From Fibrobacter succinogenes (GTDB lineage Bacteria; Fibrobacterota; Fibrobacteria; Fibrobacterales; Fibrobacteraceae): DNA of 64,000 nucleotides. The position numbers were made by a program, and so were the translations under genes. The stretch is taken from NCBI GenBank assembly GCA_902762795.1, contig CACWPM010000001.1:1-64000 (forward strand), in the 5' to 3' direction. Shown in pieces: positions 1,007 through 12,598 of this stretch. Below the pieces are notes generated by a model. The model searched no databases. It had not been told where the DNA came from and saw nothing but the letters and a program-made list of their open reading frames with translations. How positions within the stretch are numbered: position 1 is the stretch's first letter; every line of letters begins with the position of its first letter.

Positions 1007-1111
1007 TTGAAATCCTTTGATTTTATTGTTATGCAGTTGGCAGACCGCATATCAACAGTAATCAAAGGATTTCTTTTTCCCGAGGACGCAACGCCAGAAG
1101 GCTCTTTTGAA

Positions 1112-1130
1112 CCACCAGCCTAGCTGGTGG
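1112..1130. repeat. Subterminal palindrome of the IS200 element (transposase 5' side)
   Basis: Stem CCACCAGC/GCTGGTGG with loop CTA. It differs from the partner at 449-467 by a compensated base-pair change. In IS200 a hairpin at this end can also limit read-through into the transposase gene. Confidence 0.7.
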
Positions 1131-1146
1131 TTTTCGGTTATACAAA

Positions 1147-4619: not shown

Positions 4620-5906
4620 TTAAATCTGGTCCAGAGCCTGTGCGAGGTCGTTGATGATGTCTTCGTAGTGTTCCGTACCGATGGAGAGACGGATAGTTGC
4701 CGGAGAGATGCCTGCTGCGGCGAGTTCTTCCGGAGTGAGTTCCGAGTGGGTCGTGGTATACGGGTGAACAACGAGGCTCTTCACGTCGGCGACGTTTGCG
4801 AGCAGGCTGAAGATCTTGAGGCTGTCGATGAACTTGAAGGCTTCTGCCTGGCCTCCCTTCACGTCGAACGTGAAGATGGAGCCGCCACCGTTCGGGAAGT
4901 ACTTGGTGTAAAGTTCATGCTGCGGATGATCCTTGAAGCTCGGGTGGTTGACCTTTGCAACCTTCGGGTGCTTCGAGAGGAATTCGAGAACCTTCTTGGT
5001 GTTTTCCACGTGACGGTCAAGGCGGAGCGAAAGCGTTTCGGTGCCCTGCAAGAGGAGGAATGCATTGAATGGGGAAATTGCTGCACCTTCGTCGCGGAGA
5101 AGAATAGCGCGGATGTAAACGATGTAAGCTGCTGCGCCGGCTGCTGCCGTGAAAGGCACGCCGTAGCTCGGGTTCACTTCGGTGAACTGCGGGAACTTGC
5201 CAGATGCAGCCCAGTCGAACTTGCCACCGTCCACAATCACGCCACCGAGAGTCGTACCGTGGCCGCCGATGAACTTCGTTGCGGAGTGAACGACGATGTC
5301 GGCACCGTGTTCAATCGGGCGAATCAGATACGGCGTACCGAAGGTATTGTCGATCACGACAGGAATCTTGTTCTTGTGAGCGAGTTCAGAGATGGCTTCG
5401 ATATCCGGGATGTCGGAATTCGGATTGCCGAGCGTTTCAATGAAGACGAGCTTCGTGTTGGACTTGATAGCGCCTTCGACTTCCTTGAGGTTGTGAACGT
5501 CGACAAAAGTCGTTTCAATGCCGAACTTGCTGAGCGTATGCTCCAAGAGGTTGTAAGTACCGCCGTAGATGGAACGCTGAGCGACCACGTGGTCACCCTT
5601 GCGGGCGAGAGCCGTGATGGCGTAAGTAAGAGCGGCTGCACCAGAAGCGACTGCGAGACCTGCGATACCGCCTTCGAGAGCTGCGATACGCTTTTCAAAA
5701 ACGTCCTGCGTGGTGTTGGTGAGGCGACCGTAAATGTTACCTGCATCCTTCAGGTGGAAACGGTCAGAAGCGTGCTGAGCGTTGTGGAACACGTAAGAGG
5801 TGGTCTGGTATATAGGAACTGCGCGAGAATCGGTTGCGGGGTCTGCCTGTTCCTGGCCAACGTGGAGCTGAAGAGTTTCAAAATGGAGCTTATTCTGAGT
5901 CGTCAT
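4620..5906 (-). CDS. metY: O-acetylhomoserine sulfhydrylase (Cys/Met metabolism PLP enzyme)
   Basis: About 428 residues, the usual MetY length, making homocysteine from O-acetylhomoserine and sulfide. The N-terminus FETLQLHVGQEQADPATDSR and the YQTTSYVF segment are typical, the PLP lysine is in SATKFIGGHGTT, and RLSIGTEHYEDI closes the protein. A longer frame back to 5948 is open, but the ATG at 5906 has AGGA ten bases upstream and begins at the conserved sequence, so I chose it. The 5' region is long and structured and encodes a small Cys-containing peptide. An O-acetylserine activity is also possible in this family. Confidence 0.93.
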   Translation of the reverse strand: MTTQNKLHFETLQLHVGQEQADPATDSRAVPIYQTTSYVFHNAQHASDRFHLKDAGNIYGRLTNTTQDVFEKRIAALEGGIAGLAVASGAAALTYAITALARKGDHVVAQRSIYGGTYNLLEHTLSKFGIETTFVDVHNLKEVEGAIKSNTKLVFIETLGNPNSDIPDIEAISELAHKNKIPVVIDNTFGTPYLIRPIEHGADIVVHSATKFIGGHGTTLGGVIVDGGKFDWAASGKFPQFTEVNPSYGVPFTAAAGAAAYIVYIRAILLRDEGAAISPFNAFLLLQGTETLSLRLDRHVENTKKVLEFLSKHPKVAKVNHPSFKDHPQHELYTKYFPNGGGSIFTFDVKGGQAEAFKFIDSLKIFSLLANVADVKSLVVHPYTTTHSELTPEELAAAGISPATIRLSIGTEHYEDIINDLAQALDQI

Positions 5907-6100
5907 ATTATTTAAATCCTTTTGAGCGCTTGGCGCGAAGTTTCGCAATCGCCCGATCGTTTTGTTACTGTTGGCGTCGGGCGACGCGATTGTTAATAGG
6001 TTTGCTCAATCCTGAGCGTTAAATTTTGGCGGTATTAGGCCCGCCCGCCTTCAGCTTGGTTACACATTCGACATCGCATAGCAAAATCCTCCAGGCTTTT
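5907..6100 (-). promoter_or_regulatory. Structured leader of metY-cysK with hairpins after a leader peptide
   Basis: About 190 bases separate a well-formed short peptide gene (6035-6079) from metY. Between them lie several possible stems: a five-base GGCGG/CCGCC pair that overlaps the end of the peptide gene; GCTCA/TGAGC near 6010; an eight-base pair 5949-5956 with 5977-5984 (TCGCCCGA/TCGGGCGA); and GCGC/GCGC at 5926-5936, directly before the metY ribosome site. The GC-rich end of the peptide gene (GGCGGGCGGGCC) can also pair with GCCCGACGCC further down, competing with the eight-base stem. That is the layout expected for attenuation or translational control. It does not resemble the SAM or SAH riboswitch consensus sequences I know. 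Confidence 0.5.
6035..6079 (-). CDS. Putative Cys-containing leader peptide upstream of metY-cysK
   Basis: A 14-codon frame encodes MRCRMCNQAEGGRA and ends in TAA. It has a strong ribosome site, GGAGG at 6088-6092, eight bases before the ATG. It includes two Cys and two Met codons in its first six. Its position in the 5' leader of an operon making homocysteine and cysteine suggests that ribosome stalling on Cys (or Met) codons reports amino-acid supply to the hairpins downstream. Cys-codon leader peptides that attenuate sulfur genes are known in mycobacteria; I do not recognise this one. Translation is inferred only from the start site and context. Confidence 0.55.
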   Translation of the reverse strand: MRCRMCNQAEGGRA

Positions 6101-6196
6101 CCTTTTCGGGGAGCCTCGTTCGTTTGACGTGCATAATTTAAAAACTAATTCCTACCATTCCAATAGGAAAAGACGGTGAATTATAATTTTTTTCAA

Positions 6197-6225
6197 GAAA
6201 AAAGCCTTTCTCATAGAGAAAGGCT
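6197..6225 (-). terminator. Intrinsic terminator of the radical SAM operon
   Basis: Ten-base stem AGCCTTTCTC/GAGAAAGGCT with a three-base loop, followed on the minus strand by a run of T. It lies about 65 bases after the stop of the radical SAM gene, so it ends that transcript before the metY promoter region. Confidence 0.8.
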
Positions 6226-6288
6226 ATAACAAGACAATGATTTTTATAATAACTAAAGTTTTTTAGCGCAAAAAGCCGTTTTTAGCAC

Positions 6289-7380
6289 TCAAACTCCAGC
6301 CGCTTCTAGACGTTTTACATGACAGTAGGCCAACTCTCCAGTCTTTTCATCACGGAGGTGAAGGCTAGAACCTTCGCAATAACGCCAGTACTTGCAATCC
6401 TTGCACTCGCCAGTCCTGGCCCAATTACGGTCACGCATTACCTGGTAACGGTTCTGCCACACATCCCAAATATCATCTTTATAGATATTTCCCTGGATAT
6501 AGTCGCCGCGCAGGCTCGGACATGCCGAAATGCTCCCGTCGCAAAGCACGGATGCGATGTTCACACCCGCCCAGCAAAAGAATGGACTGTCGCGAACGAC
6601 TTTTTCGTAACTGCCGAGGAAAGCCTCACAATCATAATTCACGCTGATGAGATTAGCCTTTTTCGCTTCACGAATAAATTCAAACACCTGTCGGAATTCT
6701 TGATTCGTAAGCTGGAAAAGCGGATTGTCCTTCGCACGCCCCTTCGGGAAAACATTCGAGACTCGCCAGCGCTTCACGCCAAGATTTACGAGCAAATTAA
6801 AAATCTGCGGCAATTCCTTGAGGTTTTTGCGGTTCACACACGTCATGACATCGAAAACGATGCCATCGGTATGCGCCGCCATGTTGATAGCGCGCACGGC
6901 ACGTTCAAAGCTGTGCGGATTGCCACGGAAATGGTTATGGTTTTCTTGAAGCCCGTCAAGGCTAATCGTAAGCGACTTCAACCCGGCATTCAAGAGCTTC
7001 GTATAACGCTCAGGCGTTAACGCTAGCCCATTCGTCACCATGCCCCAAGGATAACCGCGAGCCTTGATTTCCTTACCGCATTCTTCGAGGTCCGGTCGCA
7101 TCAAAGGTTCGCCGCCGGTAATCACGACGGCAAATTCCTTGGGATCGATATGTGGTGCAAGCCGGTCCAAGACCTGCATAAAATCTTCACAAGGCATGTC
7201 AGGGATAGCATCCGCAATACAATCGCTTCCGCAATGCAGGCAATGTAAATTGCAGCGCAAAGTACATTCCCAGAAAAAATATGTCAGCGGGTGCGCCTTG
7301 ATTTCCCTATGACGATAAAAGCGATGCGCTTCAAGCGCAATTTTCTTCTTTAGACCGAGTTGCACGATTTTTTTTACCAC
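6289..7380 (-). CDS. Radical SAM/SPASM enzyme of a radical SAM-lipoprotein system
   Basis: 363 residues. The radical SAM cluster motif is C43xxxC47xxC50 (CNLHCLHC), with a further Cys at 39, then ITGGEPLMRP and SLDGLQ as expected for the SAM-binding barrel. The C-terminal part has SPASM-type cysteines (CWAGVN, CDGSISACPS, CKDCKYWRYC) for extra iron-sulfur clusters, as in peptide-modifying enzymes. The GTG start lies three bases after the stop of the lipoprotein gene upstream, so the two are coupled. It fits, from memory, the family called rSAM/lipoprotein system enzyme (TIGR04133), known from Bacteroides and Fibrobacter. The likely substrates are the neighbouring lipoproteins; the modification is unknown. 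Confidence 0.85.
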   Translation of the reverse strand: MVKKIVQLGLKKKIALEAHRFYRHREIKAHPLTYFFWECTLRCNLHCLHCGSDCIADAIPDMPCEDFMQVLDRLAPHIDPKEFAVVITGGEPLMRPDLEECGKEIKARGYPWGMVTNGLALTPERYTKLLNAGLKSLTISLDGLQENHNHFRGNPHSFERAVRAINMAAHTDGIVFDVMTCVNRKNLKELPQIFNLLVNLGVKRWRVSNVFPKGRAKDNPLFQLTNQEFRQVFEFIREAKKANLISVNYDCEAFLGSYEKVVRDSPFFCWAGVNIASVLCDGSISACPSLRGDYIQGNIYKDDIWDVWQNRYQVMRDRNWARTGECKDCKYWRYCEGSSLHLRDEKTGELAYCHVKRLEAAGV

Positions 7381-7383
7381 CTA

Positions 7384-8106
7384 TTACGGATTTTCATCCT
7401 TTACTTTGCAATTTTCAAGTTCCTTAAGGGCCTTTTCATCGCAATATACCAAATCTTCCACATTCAACTTAACGGCTTCTTCGCAGAACTTATCATGAGG
7501 AATATTTGGGGGGCCATAAAGGCAGAGGCCACTATCAATATCATAAATATTCAAAAATTCTTCTTCTGTAAACTGGAAGAAGCCGTTGCTATAATAATTC
7601 CCATATTTGCCAGGAATAATAGTATAAGTTGCGCCATCTTCGCATTGAAGAGTGTTACCATGCTTATGGCAAATGATTTTTCCATTAGCGGCAACTTCAA
7701 AGAGAGTATAGTGATCTTTGAATTCGGCTTCGTTATAGACCTTGCCATTGTCGCACACGTATTGCTTTTTCTTGATAATCAATACGCCATACTTTGCACA
7801 AACCTCACCCGGATTGCAGGGTGGATTAGCGTGATATACCTTTTCCGTTTCAATGCAGGTAACTCCGTCACGGCACCTTACAACAGGGCTATTCTGCCAT
7901 TTACCGCAGATAACCGACGGGATACCCATCGAAATGTCCTTCATTTCGACCGATGCCGAATTTTCATCGACACGATTCGTTTTTGCCAAATTCGGGTCCG
8001 TGCCAAGATCGGCTTGGCCGACCACCGTATTTGAAGCATTGTCGCAGCCGTTCCAGAAGAATCCGGTCAAGGCGAGCAACATTTTTTTCCAATGTTTGTA
8101 CATCAT
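7384..8106 (-). CDS. Putative lipoprotein 1, likely partner of the radical SAM enzyme
   Basis: About 240 residues. It begins MMYKHWKKMLLALTGFFWNGC: a short basic start, a hydrophobic stretch and a Cys, i.e. a lipoprotein signal with an unusual W-N-G before the Cys. The mature part is Cys-rich and shares with its two neighbours the blocks DGVTCIET, KYGV, CDNGKVYNEAEF and LQCEDGATYT. Near the end is LYGPPNIP, matching the LYGxP motif repeated in the third paralogue. The ATG at 8106 has AGAGG eight bases upstream. It is transcribed just before the radical SAM gene, three bases apart, so it is the most direct candidate substrate. Confidence 0.8.
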   Translation of the reverse strand: MMYKHWKKMLLALTGFFWNGCDNASNTVVGQADLGTDPNLAKTNRVDENSASVEMKDISMGIPSVICGKWQNSPVVRCRDGVTCIETEKVYHANPPCNPGEVCAKYGVLIIKKKQYVCDNGKVYNEAEFKDHYTLFEVAANGKIICHKHGNTLQCEDGATYTIIPGKYGNYYSNGFFQFTEEEFLNIYDIDSGLCLYGPPNIPHDKFCEEAVKLNVEDLVYCDEKALKELENCKVKDENP

Positions 8107-8311
8107 ATTCAATACCTCTAGAAAAGAATGTGAAATGGTATGTTAAAATATAGACAAACAAACTTTAACTTGCAAGAAAAATATAATCATTTATCATTAT
8201 TTTTGATACATTCGCCCATCAATATAACATTTTATAAACAATATACGCTCTTCAGTAAAATCAATTATATTTGTTAGTTTAGACAAATAACAAATTTACT
8301 TGTAACCGACA

Positions 8312-8336
8312 ACGCCCCGTTTGGTAAACGGGGCGT
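8312..8336 (-). terminator. Strong GC-rich hairpin after lipoprotein 2
   Basis: Eleven-base stem ACGCCCCGTTT/AAACGGGGCGT with a GGT loop. It lies about 55 bases past the stop of lipoprotein 2. No clear T run follows on either strand, so it may be a weak or factor-assisted terminator. Confidence 0.5.
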
Positions 8337-8389
8337 CAAACATTTCACGGTTTTGCACAATTTTCTGGACCCAAGCCAAGAAGCGCTGA

Positions 8390-9022
8390 TCAATCCGCTA
8401 TTTCATACTTGCTCAAGAACTCTTCTGCGCTCAACCTCTGATCATCATTTATAAACACCATTCTCTGATAATTCACTTTCGAAAACCCATTTATGGGGAG
8501 CATGGTGAATGTTTTACCATCTTCGCATTCCAGGACATTTCTGGCGACCTTGTGGCAAATAATCTTTTTCTTTTTTGGAACTGCGCGAATCCTGTAAAGC
8601 GACCTGAATTCGTCTTCCGTATAGATTCTGTTATTGTCGCACGTGTACATTTTTTTCTTGCTGAAGAAAACCCCGTACTTCGGGCAAATGGTTCCTGTGC
8701 AATTGTTCGTTGGGGTTTCTACCACGGTTTCAATGCACGTAAGGCCGTCCGAGCACGTCAAAATGCGGCTTCCTTCTTCCTGAAGGCAGTACTTAATCGG
8801 AATACCATATAACGGAACAATCACATCAAAAGCAACGGAATCCGAAAAGCCCGTCTTTGCCAAATTCGGAGCAGACGCCTGCACCGGATCAGAACTCGCC
8901 TTGGAATCATTCTTAAGGGATGTCGTGAGAGGAGAATCGGCACCTGTCGCGGTCGAAGAATAATCACAGCTGTTCCAGAAAAAGCCCGTCAAAGCGAGTA
9001 ACATGTTTTTCCAGTGTTTCAT
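8390..9022 (-). CDS. Putative lipoprotein 2, paralogue of the radical SAM-associated lipoprotein
   Basis: About 210 residues. The start MKHWKNMLLALTGFFWNSC is nearly identical to that of lipoprotein 1. The body repeats the shared Cys-rich blocks (CSDGLTCIET, KYGVFF, CDNNRIYTEDEF, LECEDGKTFT, LSAEEFLSKYE). A single PLYGIPIKYC occurs before them. I chose the ATG at 9022, which has AAGGA seven bases upstream, over an earlier start at 9037. It has its own spacer and hairpin downstream, so it is probably a separate transcript from the enzyme operon, but in the same orientation and presumably acted on by the same enzyme. Confidence 0.75.
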   Translation of the reverse strand: MKHWKNMLLALTGFFWNSCDYSSTATGADSPLTTSLKNDSKASSDPVQASAPNLAKTGFSDSVAFDVIVPLYGIPIKYCLQEEGSRILTCSDGLTCIETVVETPTNNCTGTICPKYGVFFSKKKMYTCDNNRIYTEDEFRSLYRIRAVPKKKKIICHKVARNVLECEDGKTFTMLPINGFSKVNYQRMVFINDDQRLSAEEFLSKYEIAD

Positions 9023-9135
9023 ATTCAATTCCTTCATGGAAAAGTTAAACCCAACATTAGAATATAACTAAATAAACATTTTTTCGTAACAATTTTAGAA
9101 TGTTAATTTTTGTTTTCGAAAATTTCCCTTTTACA

Positions 9136-9170
9136 CAAAAATCCCTTACAGCACGCTGCCATAAGGGATT
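9136..9170 (-). terminator. Intrinsic terminator of lipoprotein 3
   Basis: Nine-base stem AATCCCTTA/TAAGGGATT followed on the minus strand by TTTTT. It lies about 65 bases after the lipoprotein 3 stop and closes that gene as its own unit. Confidence 0.7.
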
Positions 9171-9233
9171 ACCGTCTTTTCTAGGTGTATGATGTCGTTA
9201 TCGTAGTAAAATTTTGCCCCCCTCCCACTTCAA

Positions 9234-10043
9234 CTACTTTTCCTCGTCACCACAAGAACCGTTGAACACACAGGGCGGACCATAAAGAACAACAAGATCT
9301 TCAAACGCTTCATATTTTTCGAAGAACTGCTTTTCGTTTAACACAGTCTGTTCGTTGGTATAAGTCGTATTCCCCTTTTCGTCGGTAGCAATTACAAAGT
9401 TGTTGCCATCATCGCATTCCATGAGATTCTTTGTCTTGCGGCAACGGATCTTATTTTCAGGGTCAACAACCGTGAGAATATTATAGTTCGCCTTGAACTC
9501 CGCTTCGTTGTAAACTTTGCCATTATCGCATTTGTAAGTCTTATCCCTAACGATGACCACACCGTATTTTGCAGCCATTTCCGAAGGATTATTTCTTGTA
9601 ACTCGTTCGGTATCCGTCGATGTTTCAACGCATGTTACGCCGTCCGCGCACGTTATAGTGGAATCATCCTGCTTTTTCAAGCAAGTCGTTCCCACGTAAA
9701 TACCATACAAAGGAACAGGATCCAAGTCCATGCCGCTGGAACTTTCGGCAACTCTAGAACTGGACGATTTGACATTACTGCTACTAGATTCGCCACCACA
9801 AAACACCGACGGGCAACCGTAAAGATCTTCATTTTGATCAAAGACACTGGAGCTAATCCGTTCAGATTCAGTACTGGAACTGGACGTTTTCGTTGCAGAA
9901 CTTGAGCCACCCCCTTCCGTTGTCGAACTCGAACTGAAATTAGGGACCCCATAGAGAGGATCTGTCGTTGAAGTGATATCTTCGCAGGCATTCCAAAAGA
10001 ACGCCGTCAAAGCAAGCAAAGCTTTTTTCCAATGTTTATACAT
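9234..10043 (-). CDS. Putative lipoprotein 3 with several LYGxP motifs and Ser-rich linkers
   Basis: About 269 residues. The start MYKHWKKALLALTAFFWNAC matches the other two paralogues. It differs in having two Ser-rich linkers, typical of Fibrobacter surface proteins, that separate LYG motifs: LYGVP, LYGCPSVFCGG, LYGIYVGTTC and, near the C-terminus, LYGPPCVFNGSCG. The shared Cys-rich block (CADGVTCVET, KYGVV, CDNGKVYNEAEF, MECDDGNNF) lies between the third and fourth. The longer frame back to 10106 is unlikely because GAGGGG sits eight bases before the ATG at 10043. The repeated LYGxP motif is the best guess for the site modified by the radical SAM enzyme. Confidence 0.78.
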   Translation of the reverse strand: MYKHWKKALLALTAFFWNACEDITSTTDPLYGVPNFSSSSTTEGGGSSSATKTSSSSTESERISSSVFDQNEDLYGCPSVFCGGESSSSNVKSSSSRVAESSSGMDLDPVPLYGIYVGTTCLKKQDDSTITCADGVTCVETSTDTERVTRNNPSEMAAKYGVVIVRDKTYKCDNGKVYNEAEFKANYNILTVVDPENKIRCRKTKNLMECDDGNNFVIATDEKGNTTYTNEQTVLNEKQFFEKYEAFEDLVVLYGPPCVFNGSCGDEEK

Positions 10044-10201
10044 CATAATAAAACCCCTCAAGATACGGATTATTCTTACACCTTTAATATATGTAAAGGA
10101 GAACAAACAATCAATCCCAAAACGGTTTCGTTTTTATCATTTTTTTCGATTTTCAACGCCCCAAAAAGCAAATTTTTTCTTGGGTGTATAATATAGAGCA
10201 A

Positions 10202-12292
10202 TCAACGCATCGTTCCCGACGTAAGTCCCTTCACGGGCACGTAGCGTACAGCCCCATCCGGAGAAACAATCATGGCAACGCCCGCCATGTAATTAATCCA
10301 CCGGCCACTTTCGTAATACCGCACATTGGCTCTTCCCCCCGTCACATACGCAAGGAGCGGAACCACCAAGTAATCATGCGTACACATAACGCTTACGCGT
10401 TTCATCGTTGAAAGATTCGCCAGGATTTCATCGTCAAGCAACTGTTTGCTGCGAGTCTCCAAATCGTAAAACGCATCCGAAAATTGACCGGCAAAAGCAT
10501 ATTTGGAATACAAATCCCAACCGCCGCGCTCCGCACCCGCGTAACTGCTAACTTTATCCGCATCCATGACATACCAGCTGCCATACAAATACGGAAGTTC
10601 ATTGATGGTATAATTCTGCTGCTCCTTACCAATCGCAATTTCTTCACAGGTTTCTTGCGTGCGCACGTAGCCCGAATAACCGTAATAGAAATCTTCTTTG
10701 GCAACGCTAGCAAGGCGGACACCCAAATTACGGGCGTTTTTTTTCCCGTTATCGGTCAAGTGGCCGTTGGGACCTGTATCGCCTGTACGTTCACCGTGAC
10801 GGATGATGAAGACGGCCTTTTCATCAGGCTTTAAATTGGCATAGACTTCAACAAAGTCTATAAAGCCTTCGACTTCTTGCAGGGTGGCTACACGCCAGGC
10901 GTTTGTCGCGGCCTCGAAAATATAATAGACATCGTGATTGACACGACCTTCGCGAATTTCCTTATATTCGCCAAGCCCAAATCCGGCAGTATCTTTTTCG
11001 ATGGTTGTCGCGGTGCGCCATTGGAGCGTATTCGCATCACAAATAAAACGTACTTTTGAGTGATCGGCATGTCCGTAATCATTTGCGAAAAGCTTGCTTT
11101 GCCCTTGGTTCACGAATGTGACCTGCCCTGTGTTTGCACCGGTGCACGGTTCAAAACCATAGGCGACGGGGATGAACGCGCGCATATAGCGTTCAAAATT
11201 CGGGATGTTCACACCCCATGCAGAAACGTTGTCGCGAATTTCGTTGAATTTCCCGGCGGAATCGAGACCGACAATCCAGTCCGCAATTCTGACTTTCCAG
11301 TTCGGGTCGTTCCAAACGCCGTCCCCCTTAAGATCCTCAGCGAGATTGTTCGCGAGATTCATCATATCGCGCTCGCCAAGTTCGCCCTGAATCATAGCGG
11401 AGATGGCAAATAGAGCGGCGCTATATTCGTTGTTCCCAAACATGTCCAAATCTTCGGCGACAGGCTTGTCGGTGCGGCCATCATCGAAATACGGCAGCGA
11501 ATAGAGTTGGACCGTGTCTATTCCGAAAGCGGCAAAAGCTTCGCGTTCCGCCTGCGCCTTGGCTTCGGCAAAGCCGATATGGTTCATCGTGAGCTGTTCG
11601 ATGCGCGGGAGGGTGATATGCGAGAGAATGTTGACGTTCGCATGTTCGGGCGAGCACGTCTTTGCGGCAAGCGTAATGGGGTGATCTGATATTTTTCCCG
11701 TCACTTCGTTGCGGTAAAAACCGGTCGCCCTGATCTTTACGCAGTTGGAATTCGAACGAACTTCGTTAAAAGCGTAGCGCCCGTCATTGGAAAGGAGGCA
11801 ACCTTCTGCTTTTTGGTAAGTTTCGTTGCTGAATTCTTTGCTCGCTTCGGTTACAGTGACGCTTGTGCCAAAAACAAAAGGCCCTTTTTGCACAACACCG
11901 GCCATCGGGGAAATAAATCCTTCAATAAAAACCGTGTCCGGGCCGCCGACAAATGTTCCGTTCGGCAGGGACAACGCTTTGTCAACCGCATGTAAGAATC
12001 CGTCACTACACGTGATGCTGAAATCTGTGGAGTCCGCAGCACTACGCCAAGAGCCTTTTACGCAAAGACGCGGCATGTTTTCGTTCTGTACAAAGAACGC
12101 ACGACCTTCACGGCCAGTATCACAAACAGGCAAGCTGGCTACGTTCGGAACCATCAACGTGTCAAAAAGCGAAATAGGCCGGTCCGGGTCCGCATTGCCG
12201 TTGACGGAGTTACCGTCAGAAGAACATCCCATAGACAATAATGATGCCGACAAAGCAGCAAAAACAACCGCAGTTAAACCAAATTTCTTCAT
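10202..12292 (-). CDS. Lipoprotein with C-terminal histidine phosphatase domain
   Basis: About 696 residues. The lipoprotein signal is MKKFGLTAVVFAALSASLL followed by SMGC. After a short spacer comes a region seen in other Fibrobacter lipoproteins (MAGVVQKGPFVFGTSVTV). The C-terminal 200 residues are a histidine phosphatase domain: the catalytic RHGERTGDTGP, then LTDNGKKNARNLG, the RTQET segment and CTHDYLVVPLL carrying the second His. The domain may act on phosphoesters at the cell surface or only keep the fold. The ATG at 12292 has AGG eight bases upstream; an earlier in-frame ATG at 12313 is less likely. Stands alone between hairpin spacers. Confidence 0.75.
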   Translation of the reverse strand: MKKFGLTAVVFAALSASLLSMGCSSDGNSVNGNADPDRPISLFDTLMVPNVASLPVCDTGREGRAFFVQNENMPRLCVKGSWRSAADSTDFSITCSDGFLHAVDKALSLPNGTFVGGPDTVFIEGFISPMAGVVQKGPFVFGTSVTVTEASKEFSNETYQKAEGCLLSNDGRYAFNEVRSNSNCVKIRATGFYRNEVTGKISDHPITLAAKTCSPEHANVNILSHITLPRIEQLTMNHIGFAEAKAQAEREAFAAFGIDTVQLYSLPYFDDGRTDKPVAEDLDMFGNNEYSAALFAISAMIQGELGERDMMNLANNLAEDLKGDGVWNDPNWKVRIADWIVGLDSAGKFNEIRDNVSAWGVNIPNFERYMRAFIPVAYGFEPCTGANTGQVTFVNQGQSKLFANDYGHADHSKVRFICDANTLQWRTATTIEKDTAGFGLGEYKEIREGRVNHDVYYIFEAATNAWRVATLQEVEGFIDFVEVYANLKPDEKAVFIIRHGERTGDTGPNGHLTDNGKKNARNLGVRLASVAKEDFYYGYSGYVRTQETCEEIAIGKEQQNYTINELPYLYGSWYVMDADKVSSYAGAERGGWDLYSKYAFAGQFSDAFYDLETRSKQLLDDEILANLSTMKRVSVMCTHDYLVVPLLAYVTGGRANVRYYESGRWINYMAGVAMIVSPDGAVRYVPVKGLTSGTMR

Positions 12293-12598
12293 TCCAAATA
12301 CCTGCTTTGCCAAGGTGCCGAAATATGAATATAGTTAAAAAGGTCGTTTTGATTTTGGAAACAACCGTTTTCCATCAAGTTTCCCGCGTTCAAAGAAGTC
12401 CTTCAAAATGTTTTGATATCGCCACTTTTAAAACGCCAAAAGATTGATATTACTAACGGGAATGATTATACTTTTGGAAAAATCTTTATGTAATTCCGTA
12501 AATCATCTATGATTCTAAACTGAAAAAAGGCTGCGCCTAGCCCGGCATTCAGAATGAAGGCGTTGCAGTCCTTGTTGACAATCCCGCGAAATTCGGGG
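12293..12598. other. Spacer between rsmG and the phosphatase lipoprotein
   Basis: About 300 bases with no convincing gene. The first part, next to the lipoprotein start, is AT-rich and presumably holds its promoter. Next to the rsmG stop, the sequence stays open on the minus strand for about 45 codons with a coding-like composition, but there is no start site and no family I recognise. Confidence 0.4.

Follow-up and report, generated by a model that had tools for sequence, protein, structure and literature searches.

A Fibrobacter radical SAM enzyme and its multi-site lipoproteins as a probable system for splicing at X-Tyr-Gly

The 64,000-nucleotide stretch analysed here (the window; contig CACWPM010000001.1, positions 1 to 64,000) comes from a genome that its matches place in Fibrobacter, and carries a radical S-adenosylmethionine (SAM) gene with a SPASM domain beside three paralogous lipoproteins that bear repeated Tyr-Gly (YG) motifs. 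By analogy with the Pleurocapsa splicease PlpXY and from sequence, we consider it probable that this enzyme, a member of TIGR04133, splices its partner lipoproteins at X-Tyr-Gly (XYG) to give alpha-ketoamides, the products being displayed on the surface, probably as covalent traps for proteases. The pairing of enzyme and lipoproteins, the motif, its conservation and the kinship of the enzyme are observed directly.

PlpX excises tyramine at XYG (PMC10533398, PMC11002830). It is a SPASM radical SAM enzyme, accompanied by PlpY, a small RiPP (ribosomally synthesised and post-translationally modified peptide) recognition element (RRE) protein, and by precursors of the Nif11 or nitrile-hydratase-like type (PMC11002830). 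The natural sites of PlpXY are MYG and LYG, the leader is unnecessary and a ten-residue tag is enough (GGPIRPLYGLPI and variants were tried) (PMC10533398), and splicing can take place at more than one XYG of the same precursor (PMC10373908). PMC10533398 cites 27 further characterised systems and 939 predicted ones.

Results

All genes of the locus lie on the minus strand and are listed here in order of transcription.

9234..10046, minus strand: lipoprotein 3, 270 residues, Ser-rich linkers, five YG sites
8390..9022, minus strand: lipoprotein 2, 210 residues, two YG sites
7384..8106, minus strand: lipoprotein 1, 240 residues, in one operon with the radical SAM gene, three YG sites
6289..7380, minus strand: radical SAM/SPASM enzyme, TIGR04133 (rSAM_w_lipo), 599 bits; PF04055 and PF13186

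The four open reading frames (ORFs) that a sequence-only reading of this DNA had picked out are all present, the lipoproteins being 28-40% identical pairwise, and so are the shared starts and lipobox it described: MMYKHWKK/FFWNGC in lipoprotein 1, MKHWKN/FFWNSC in lipoprotein 2 and MMYKHWKK/FFWNAC in lipoprotein 3. The gap of three bases it gave between lipoprotein 1 and the radical SAM gene holds for the longest ORF but not if translation begins at the GTG at 7362, which comparison with orthologues makes the probable true start.

The enzyme scores well above the TIGR04133 cut-off (425 bits), over model positions 1-350, and has the radical SAM and SPASM domains of a SPASM maturase (81 bits to PF04055, 36 bits to PF13186). 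The lipoprotein neighbour that marks this family is likewise in place, lipoprotein 1 lying directly upstream, as a lipoprotein does in nearly all relatives; the pairing, given in the sequence-only reading as already described, is that of a named NCBI family. Invariant among the enzymes are C43, C47, C50, C269, C287, C326, C329, C335 and C353, as well as the cluster motif CxxxCxxHCGS. In maximum-likelihood trees the TIGR04133 enzymes form a single group (100/98), whose sister comprises enzymes of TIGR04103, TIGR03913/DUF1843, Agathobacter and Fibrobacter contig 27 (the last are described below). The union of the two is supported at 94/89 when every outgroup is kept and at 100/99 once three very long branches are dropped, and HCGS follows the cluster cysteines in 31 of 31 proteins of the union and in 0 of 10 outgroup proteins. 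PlpX itself presumably belongs to TIGR04103 (an InterPro family), with which its type of partner agrees. Among 72,556 plasmid records, the three TIGR04133 members match the window enzyme best; next in score comes an enzyme from Nostoc, annotated 'nif11-class peptide radical SAM maturase 3' (TIGR04103, 151 bits), whose Nif11 precursor ends ALYGLPPELF and whose gene is followed by one for a 71-residue protein, sitting where PlpY would by analogy be expected.

Two other members of the sister group have small partners. On the Agathobacter rectalis plasmid NZ_CP143948.1 (L121:3719-3931) an unannotated small ORF, likely a RiPP precursor, ends FGPVMYGTGVRM (VMYGTGVRM) and lies just upstream of a splicease-group radical SAM gene and a major facilitator superfamily transporter gene. 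DUF1843 peptides stand in tandem ahead of TIGR03913-type enzymes (L123:2028-2743, L120:3156-3869); several retain an N-terminal LYG or PYG, whereas in others there is just MY or LY, and XYG may be only partly required in them.

The window lipoproteins hold 10 YG sites in total.

7513..7521, minus strand: LYG site (LCLYGPPN), lipoprotein 1
7600..7608, minus strand: KYG site (PGKYGNYY), lipoprotein 1, a poor fit to the consensus
7786..7794, minus strand: KYG site (CAKYGVLI), lipoprotein 1, aligned with the family's invariant YG column
8672..8680, minus strand: KYG site (CPKYGVFF), lipoprotein 2, invariant YG column
8804..8812, minus strand: LYG site (VPLYGIPI), lipoprotein 2, the nearest match in the window to the PlpA2 tag PIRPLYGLPI
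9279..9287, minus strand: LYG site (VVLYGPPC), lipoprotein 3
9561..9569, minus strand: KYG site (AAKYGVVI), lipoprotein 3, invariant YG column
9702..9710, minus strand: LYG site (VPLYGIYV), lipoprotein 3
9816..9824, minus strand: LYG site (EDLYGCPS), lipoprotein 3
9948..9956, minus strand: LYG site (DPLYGVPN), lipoprotein 3

The motif was assessed in 114 non-redundant HW-type Fibrobacter lipoproteins from related loci, with the expectation taken from shuffling. YG occurs 313 times against 64.7 +/- 7.9 in shuffled sequences (4.9-fold), and at least once in 109 of the 114; in control ORFs of the same loci 546 were observed and 465 expected. The sites have the context P(51%)-L(46%)/K(19%)-Y-G-V(54%)-P(35%), which YG sites of the controls do not share, and the consensus is (P/A)-(L/K/E/D)-Y-G-V-P, with L, K, E, D, A, V or M as X and with P frequent at +3. 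Over all sites only Y and G are constant, position +2 being occupied by V, I, A, C, P, T or G. The sequence-only reading had named LYGxP as the candidate modification site, counting it once in each of the first two lipoproteins and three to four times in the third. Its LYG counts stand (LYGPP in lipoprotein 1, LYGIP in lipoprotein 2 and four in lipoprotein 3: LYGVP, LYGCP, LYGIY and LYGPP), but it overlooked two, one and one KYG sites in lipoproteins 1, 2 and 3, respectively. Its central idea is strongly supported by the enrichment and by conservation across phyla (see below), but the motif was drawn too narrowly: because sites with K, E, D, A, V and M fall in the same alignment columns as LYG or share its context, we reject LYGxP as the defining motif in favour of XYG, and each protein therefore has more sites than had been counted.

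Conservation was examined in an alignment of 35 diverged lipoproteins with a mean identity of 25%. Invariant in it are the HW n-region, Leu9, the FW..C lipobox, Cys79, Cys90, Cys96 and Cys128, Tyr116-Gly117 (the invariant YG column), Tyr134 and Phe139; Tyr72-Gly73 is conserved in at least 90%. The signal peptide ends in the lipobox FFWN(G/S/A)C, with F15, W16 and C19 invariant in 35 of 35 and an atypical W at -3, and predicts that the proteins are lipidated. The 3.9-Mb genome has 9 copies of KHWKK-type DNA: the window locus accounts for three, the contig-12 locus described below for four, and the other two are outside lipoprotein starts. On this distribution the n-region would mark out these substrates, as might be expected if it had a leader-like role. 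Lipoprotein 2, modelled with AlphaFold, is mostly confident and beta-rich over residues of about 77-210, with both YG sites off the strands, one at the edge of the disordered linker and the other in a loop. Foldseek found no solved fold resembling the lipoprotein domain (best E 0.5). Lipoproteins 1 and 2 have no NCBIfam match and lipoprotein 3 no relevant one, and Pfam gave nothing meaningful for the three. TIGR04134 (cut-off 39.8 bits) was rejected as their family, since it matches none of the window proteins and nothing above its cut-off in the whole genome.

The same motif accompanies this enzyme group well beyond Fibrobacter. In Bacteroidales, TIGR04134 lipoproteins directly upstream of TIGR04133-type enzymes carry EYGVP, EYGCP or EYGTP soon past the lipobox; most have another YG towards the C-terminal end. 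In Treponema saccharophilum (Spirochaetota) the partner directly upstream of a TIGR04133-type enzyme has ...TSCYGMP, and a deltaproteobacterial protein of twin-arginine translocation (TAT) type (L084:7206-7877), beside a TIGR04133-like radical SAM gene (256 bits), has seven KYGG sites, five of them KYGGP. Secreted partners encoded directly upstream of the enzyme in distant Fibrobacterota contain CYGTP; DYGIA, LYGII and WYGPS; KYGVI repeats; MYGVP and KYGVP; or LYGPP three times. The scaffolds that bear YG next to this enzyme group, namely TIGR04134 lipoproteins, Cys-rich lipoproteins, TAT-type, zinc-ribbon, Por-secreted and Nif11 proteins, are unrelated, and XYG, often with P at +3, is what all of them share. 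Conservation of XYG alone across unrelated scaffolds is the pattern expected of a modification site.

Within Fibrobacter the enzyme and the lipoproteins occur together. Both the radical SAM gene and the lipoproteins are found in 69 genomes, neither in 6, the radical SAM gene alone in 2 and lipoproteins alone in 3 (Fisher p = 7e-6, which is optimistic because the genomes are related); the three lipoprotein-only genomes are 71-84% complete. The lipoproteins are roughly 100-400 residues long and turn over beside the conserved enzyme; one protein can have as many as 8 YG sites, and one locus as many as 8 paralogues. A three-substrate locus with a multi-site member, taken for a rarity when the window was first read, is in fact ordinary in the genus, where loci have 1-8 lipoproteins and multi-site members are common. 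A second full TIGR04133 member in the genome of the window (contig 12, 76941-77990; locus L085:3216-8586) has at least 5 further HWK/HWG lipoproteins around it, with EYGV, MYGV, LYGV and AYGV sites; one of these is encoded downstream of the radical SAM gene and has a different n-region context, IRKHWGN. In several genomes two TIGR04133 genes lie a few kilobases apart (G126:C23, G134:C60, G096:C1, G071:C56), which suggests local duplication of the enzyme together with its lipoproteins. A side branch of Fibrobacter radical SAM genes (L124:4891-6787, L125, L126, L127), at about 270 bits to TIGR04133, overlaps the gene for a zinc-ribbon-like protein with IYGPP, in some cases also KYGMS, in which no signal peptide was seen.

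A third system of the same genome (contig 27, 82764-85118; L128:4065-4850 and 4851-6419) has a more distant radical SAM enzyme, whose best model is TIGR04103 (227 bits). The ORF just upstream encodes 11 YG, 8 as KYGxP in an array KYG(Y/F/I/V)P; its orthologues in nine other genomes have 12-21, and the system is present in 10 Fibrobacter genomes overall. The N-terminal domain resembles Inhibitor_I42 weakly, at 18 bits against a Pfam gathering threshold of 27.2 (best E 6e-4, in 3 of 7 proteins). The closest structure by TM-score to a model of this domain (mean pLDDT, the predicted local distance difference test, about 75) is chagasin (2h7w, TMt 0.66 with Foldseek E 2.6e-3; TMt 0.64-0.66 and E about 2e-3 overall), and immunoglobulin-like folds match about equally by E-value; a sequence profile of the I42-like domain gave only chance matches among Protein Data Bank sequences. 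This chagasin-like system shares with that of the window its genome, a sister-group enzyme and XYG sites, but its array protein is not a lipoprotein, is paired with a TIGR04103-like enzyme and can carry up to 21 YG sites.

Elsewhere in and around the locus there are three hairpins and two neighbouring elements.

6203..6225, minus strand: terminator-like hairpin 3' of the radical SAM gene
8312..8336, minus strand: strong hairpin without a T run, 3' of lipoprotein 2, seen in the sequence
9140..9170, minus strand: terminator-like hairpin 3' of lipoprotein 3
10202-12313, minus strand: upstream of the locus, a large protein of lipoprotein type that contains a PF00300 (histidine phosphatase) domain
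548-1006 and 1014-1132, minus strand: IS200-type transposase-like ORF and, just upstream on the same strand, a match to Rfam STnc490 (62 bits), an RNA family that may be part of such transposase elements

The two upstream paralogues had been credited with terminators of their own; this is borne out for lipoprotein 3 but not for lipoprotein 2.

Discussion

We hold the TIGR04133 enzyme to be a splicease from the XYG motif together with its sisterhood to the group of TIGR04103 and TIGR03913 enzymes that would include PlpX. The likeness to PlpXY extends to the SPASM enzyme, to several sites per precursor and to the sites themselves, LYG being natural for PlpXY and the PlpA2 tag comparing closely with P-L-Y-G-V-P here; the substrates differ, Nif11 peptides there and lipoproteins of roughly 100-400 residues here, for which splicing is a proposal. 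The TIGR04133/TIGR04134 system of Bacteroidales is alike in its enzyme, of which that of the window is a full member, and in lipoproteins with EYGxP past the lipobox, but the Fibrobacter lipoproteins have another scaffold, Ser-rich linkers and many YG sites and paralogues. We found no literature on TIGR04133/TIGR04134, or on this lipoprotein pairing, by name. The TIGR03913 'GDL motif peptide' maturase/DUF1843 system is in the sister group on the tree, and its peptides start with LYG, PYG or MY; unlike the lipoproteins of the window they are small and cytoplasmic, without a signal sequence, and some lack the Gly.

That the lipoproteins are modified, by which reaction, with what leader and against which proteases, we infer as follows. 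Because radical SAM enzymes are cytoplasmic, XYG would be modified in the cytoplasm, ahead of export. PlpX-type excision of tyramine would remove most of the Tyr (C8H9NO) and join the Tyr carbonyl to that of X, leaving a backbone alpha-ketoamide X-CO-CO-NH-Gly. Since no RRE partner is encoded next door, recognition may depend on the signal peptide, whose conserved H-W n-region would make it the leader. Signal peptidase II would then remove it, and the lipidated protein would be shown on the envelope, where the ketoamides would probably act as covalent traps for serine or cysteine proteases that differ in specificity; X would be P1, Gly P1' and, in many sites, Pro P2. Spliceotides are reported to inhibit proteases (PMC11002830, PMC11117315), the chagasin-like domain modelled in the contig-27 protein is an independent hint toward protease trapping, and inhibitors of varied proteases would fit both the range of residues found as X (L 173 times, K 82, E 41, D 38, A 21, V 14 and M 6) and the fact that the lipoproteins turn over while the enzyme is conserved.

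Several points weigh against this proposal. The enzyme scores only 141 bits against TIGR04103 (cut-off 725) and is 27-29% identical to members of that group; the sister relation falls just under a strict support mark when the very long outgroup branches are kept; and PlpX is assigned to the sister group by family naming and partner type. No PlpY/RRE-like ORF was found next to the radical SAM gene, an unlinked one not having been searched for, and the KYG and EYG sites differ from the MYG and LYG that PlpXY naturally uses. The protease role is a guess, from the class of product and one weak domain match.

A serious, if unlikely, contender is that the same XYG sites undergo another radical reaction, such as a cyclophane-type Tyr cross-link, epimerisation, dehydrogenation or fragmentation of Tyr without re-joining. 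SPASM enzymes of the wider group catalyse many reactions, and the enzyme scores no better against the TIGR04103 hidden Markov model than against that of TIGR04053, the two being equal and those of AhbD and others only slightly lower. Yet just Y and G are common to all sites while +2 varies, KYGG having there a Gly without the beta carbon needed for a three-residue cyclophane, and the sister group is the one that would include XYG splicing.

A second alternative leaves splicing in place and rivals its role: the ketoamides would serve covalent attachment, of lipoprotein to lipoprotein, to amines of the cell surface or to material of host or plant origin. The Ser-rich spacers would expose many sites, and attachment to fibre is the way of life of Fibrobacter. 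Ketoamides are reactive and are used in conjugation (PMC10533398). We think this role unlikely, given the reported inhibition of proteases by spliceotides, the chagasin-like domain of the third system and the A/V-P-L flanks, which would resemble protease subsites. Very unlikely, in our judgement, is an unmodified YG with a structural or partner-binding function, the enzyme acting elsewhere or on another substrate: modification of TIGR04133 partners is so far deduced from sequence, but the same motif recurs on unrelated scaffolds beside this enzyme group. A sactipeptide- or ranthipeptide-like thioether between a conserved Cys and Tyr, Gly or another residue would draw on the invariant C79, C90, C96 and C128 near YG in the Fibrobacter lipoproteins, but is highly improbable, as XYG is also present in partners from Bacteroidales, Treponema and several distant Fibrobacterota that contain few or no Cys besides that of the lipobox.

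Splicing of the lipoproteins at XYG accordingly remains our preferred reading of the window locus. Its extension, that TIGR04133 enzymes of gut Bacteroidota, Fibrobacter and others are spliceases that install several backbone alpha-ketoamides per lipoprotein and so make fast-evolving, multi-headed, genetically encoded inhibitors, anchored in the membrane, that trap proteases covalently with a specificity set by X, we put forward tentatively, as a possibility with the balance against it. The radical SAM/lipoprotein pairing, as a named family, and splicing at XYG are already known; the link between them appears to be new, as do the Fibrobacter lipoproteins with several sites and the third system with its inhibitor-like domain, although part may be within Scott et al. 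2022 (Chem). If true, the proposal would assign both a reaction and a role to an enzyme family of gut and rumen bacteria that has so far been an orphan, would extend backbone splicing from small RiPP peptides, with their cyanobacterial precedent, to displayed lipoproteins, and would provide a library of ketoamide inhibitors made in nature, whose P1 residues can be read from the sequence. The question of what radical SAM/lipoprotein pairs do thereby becomes testable.

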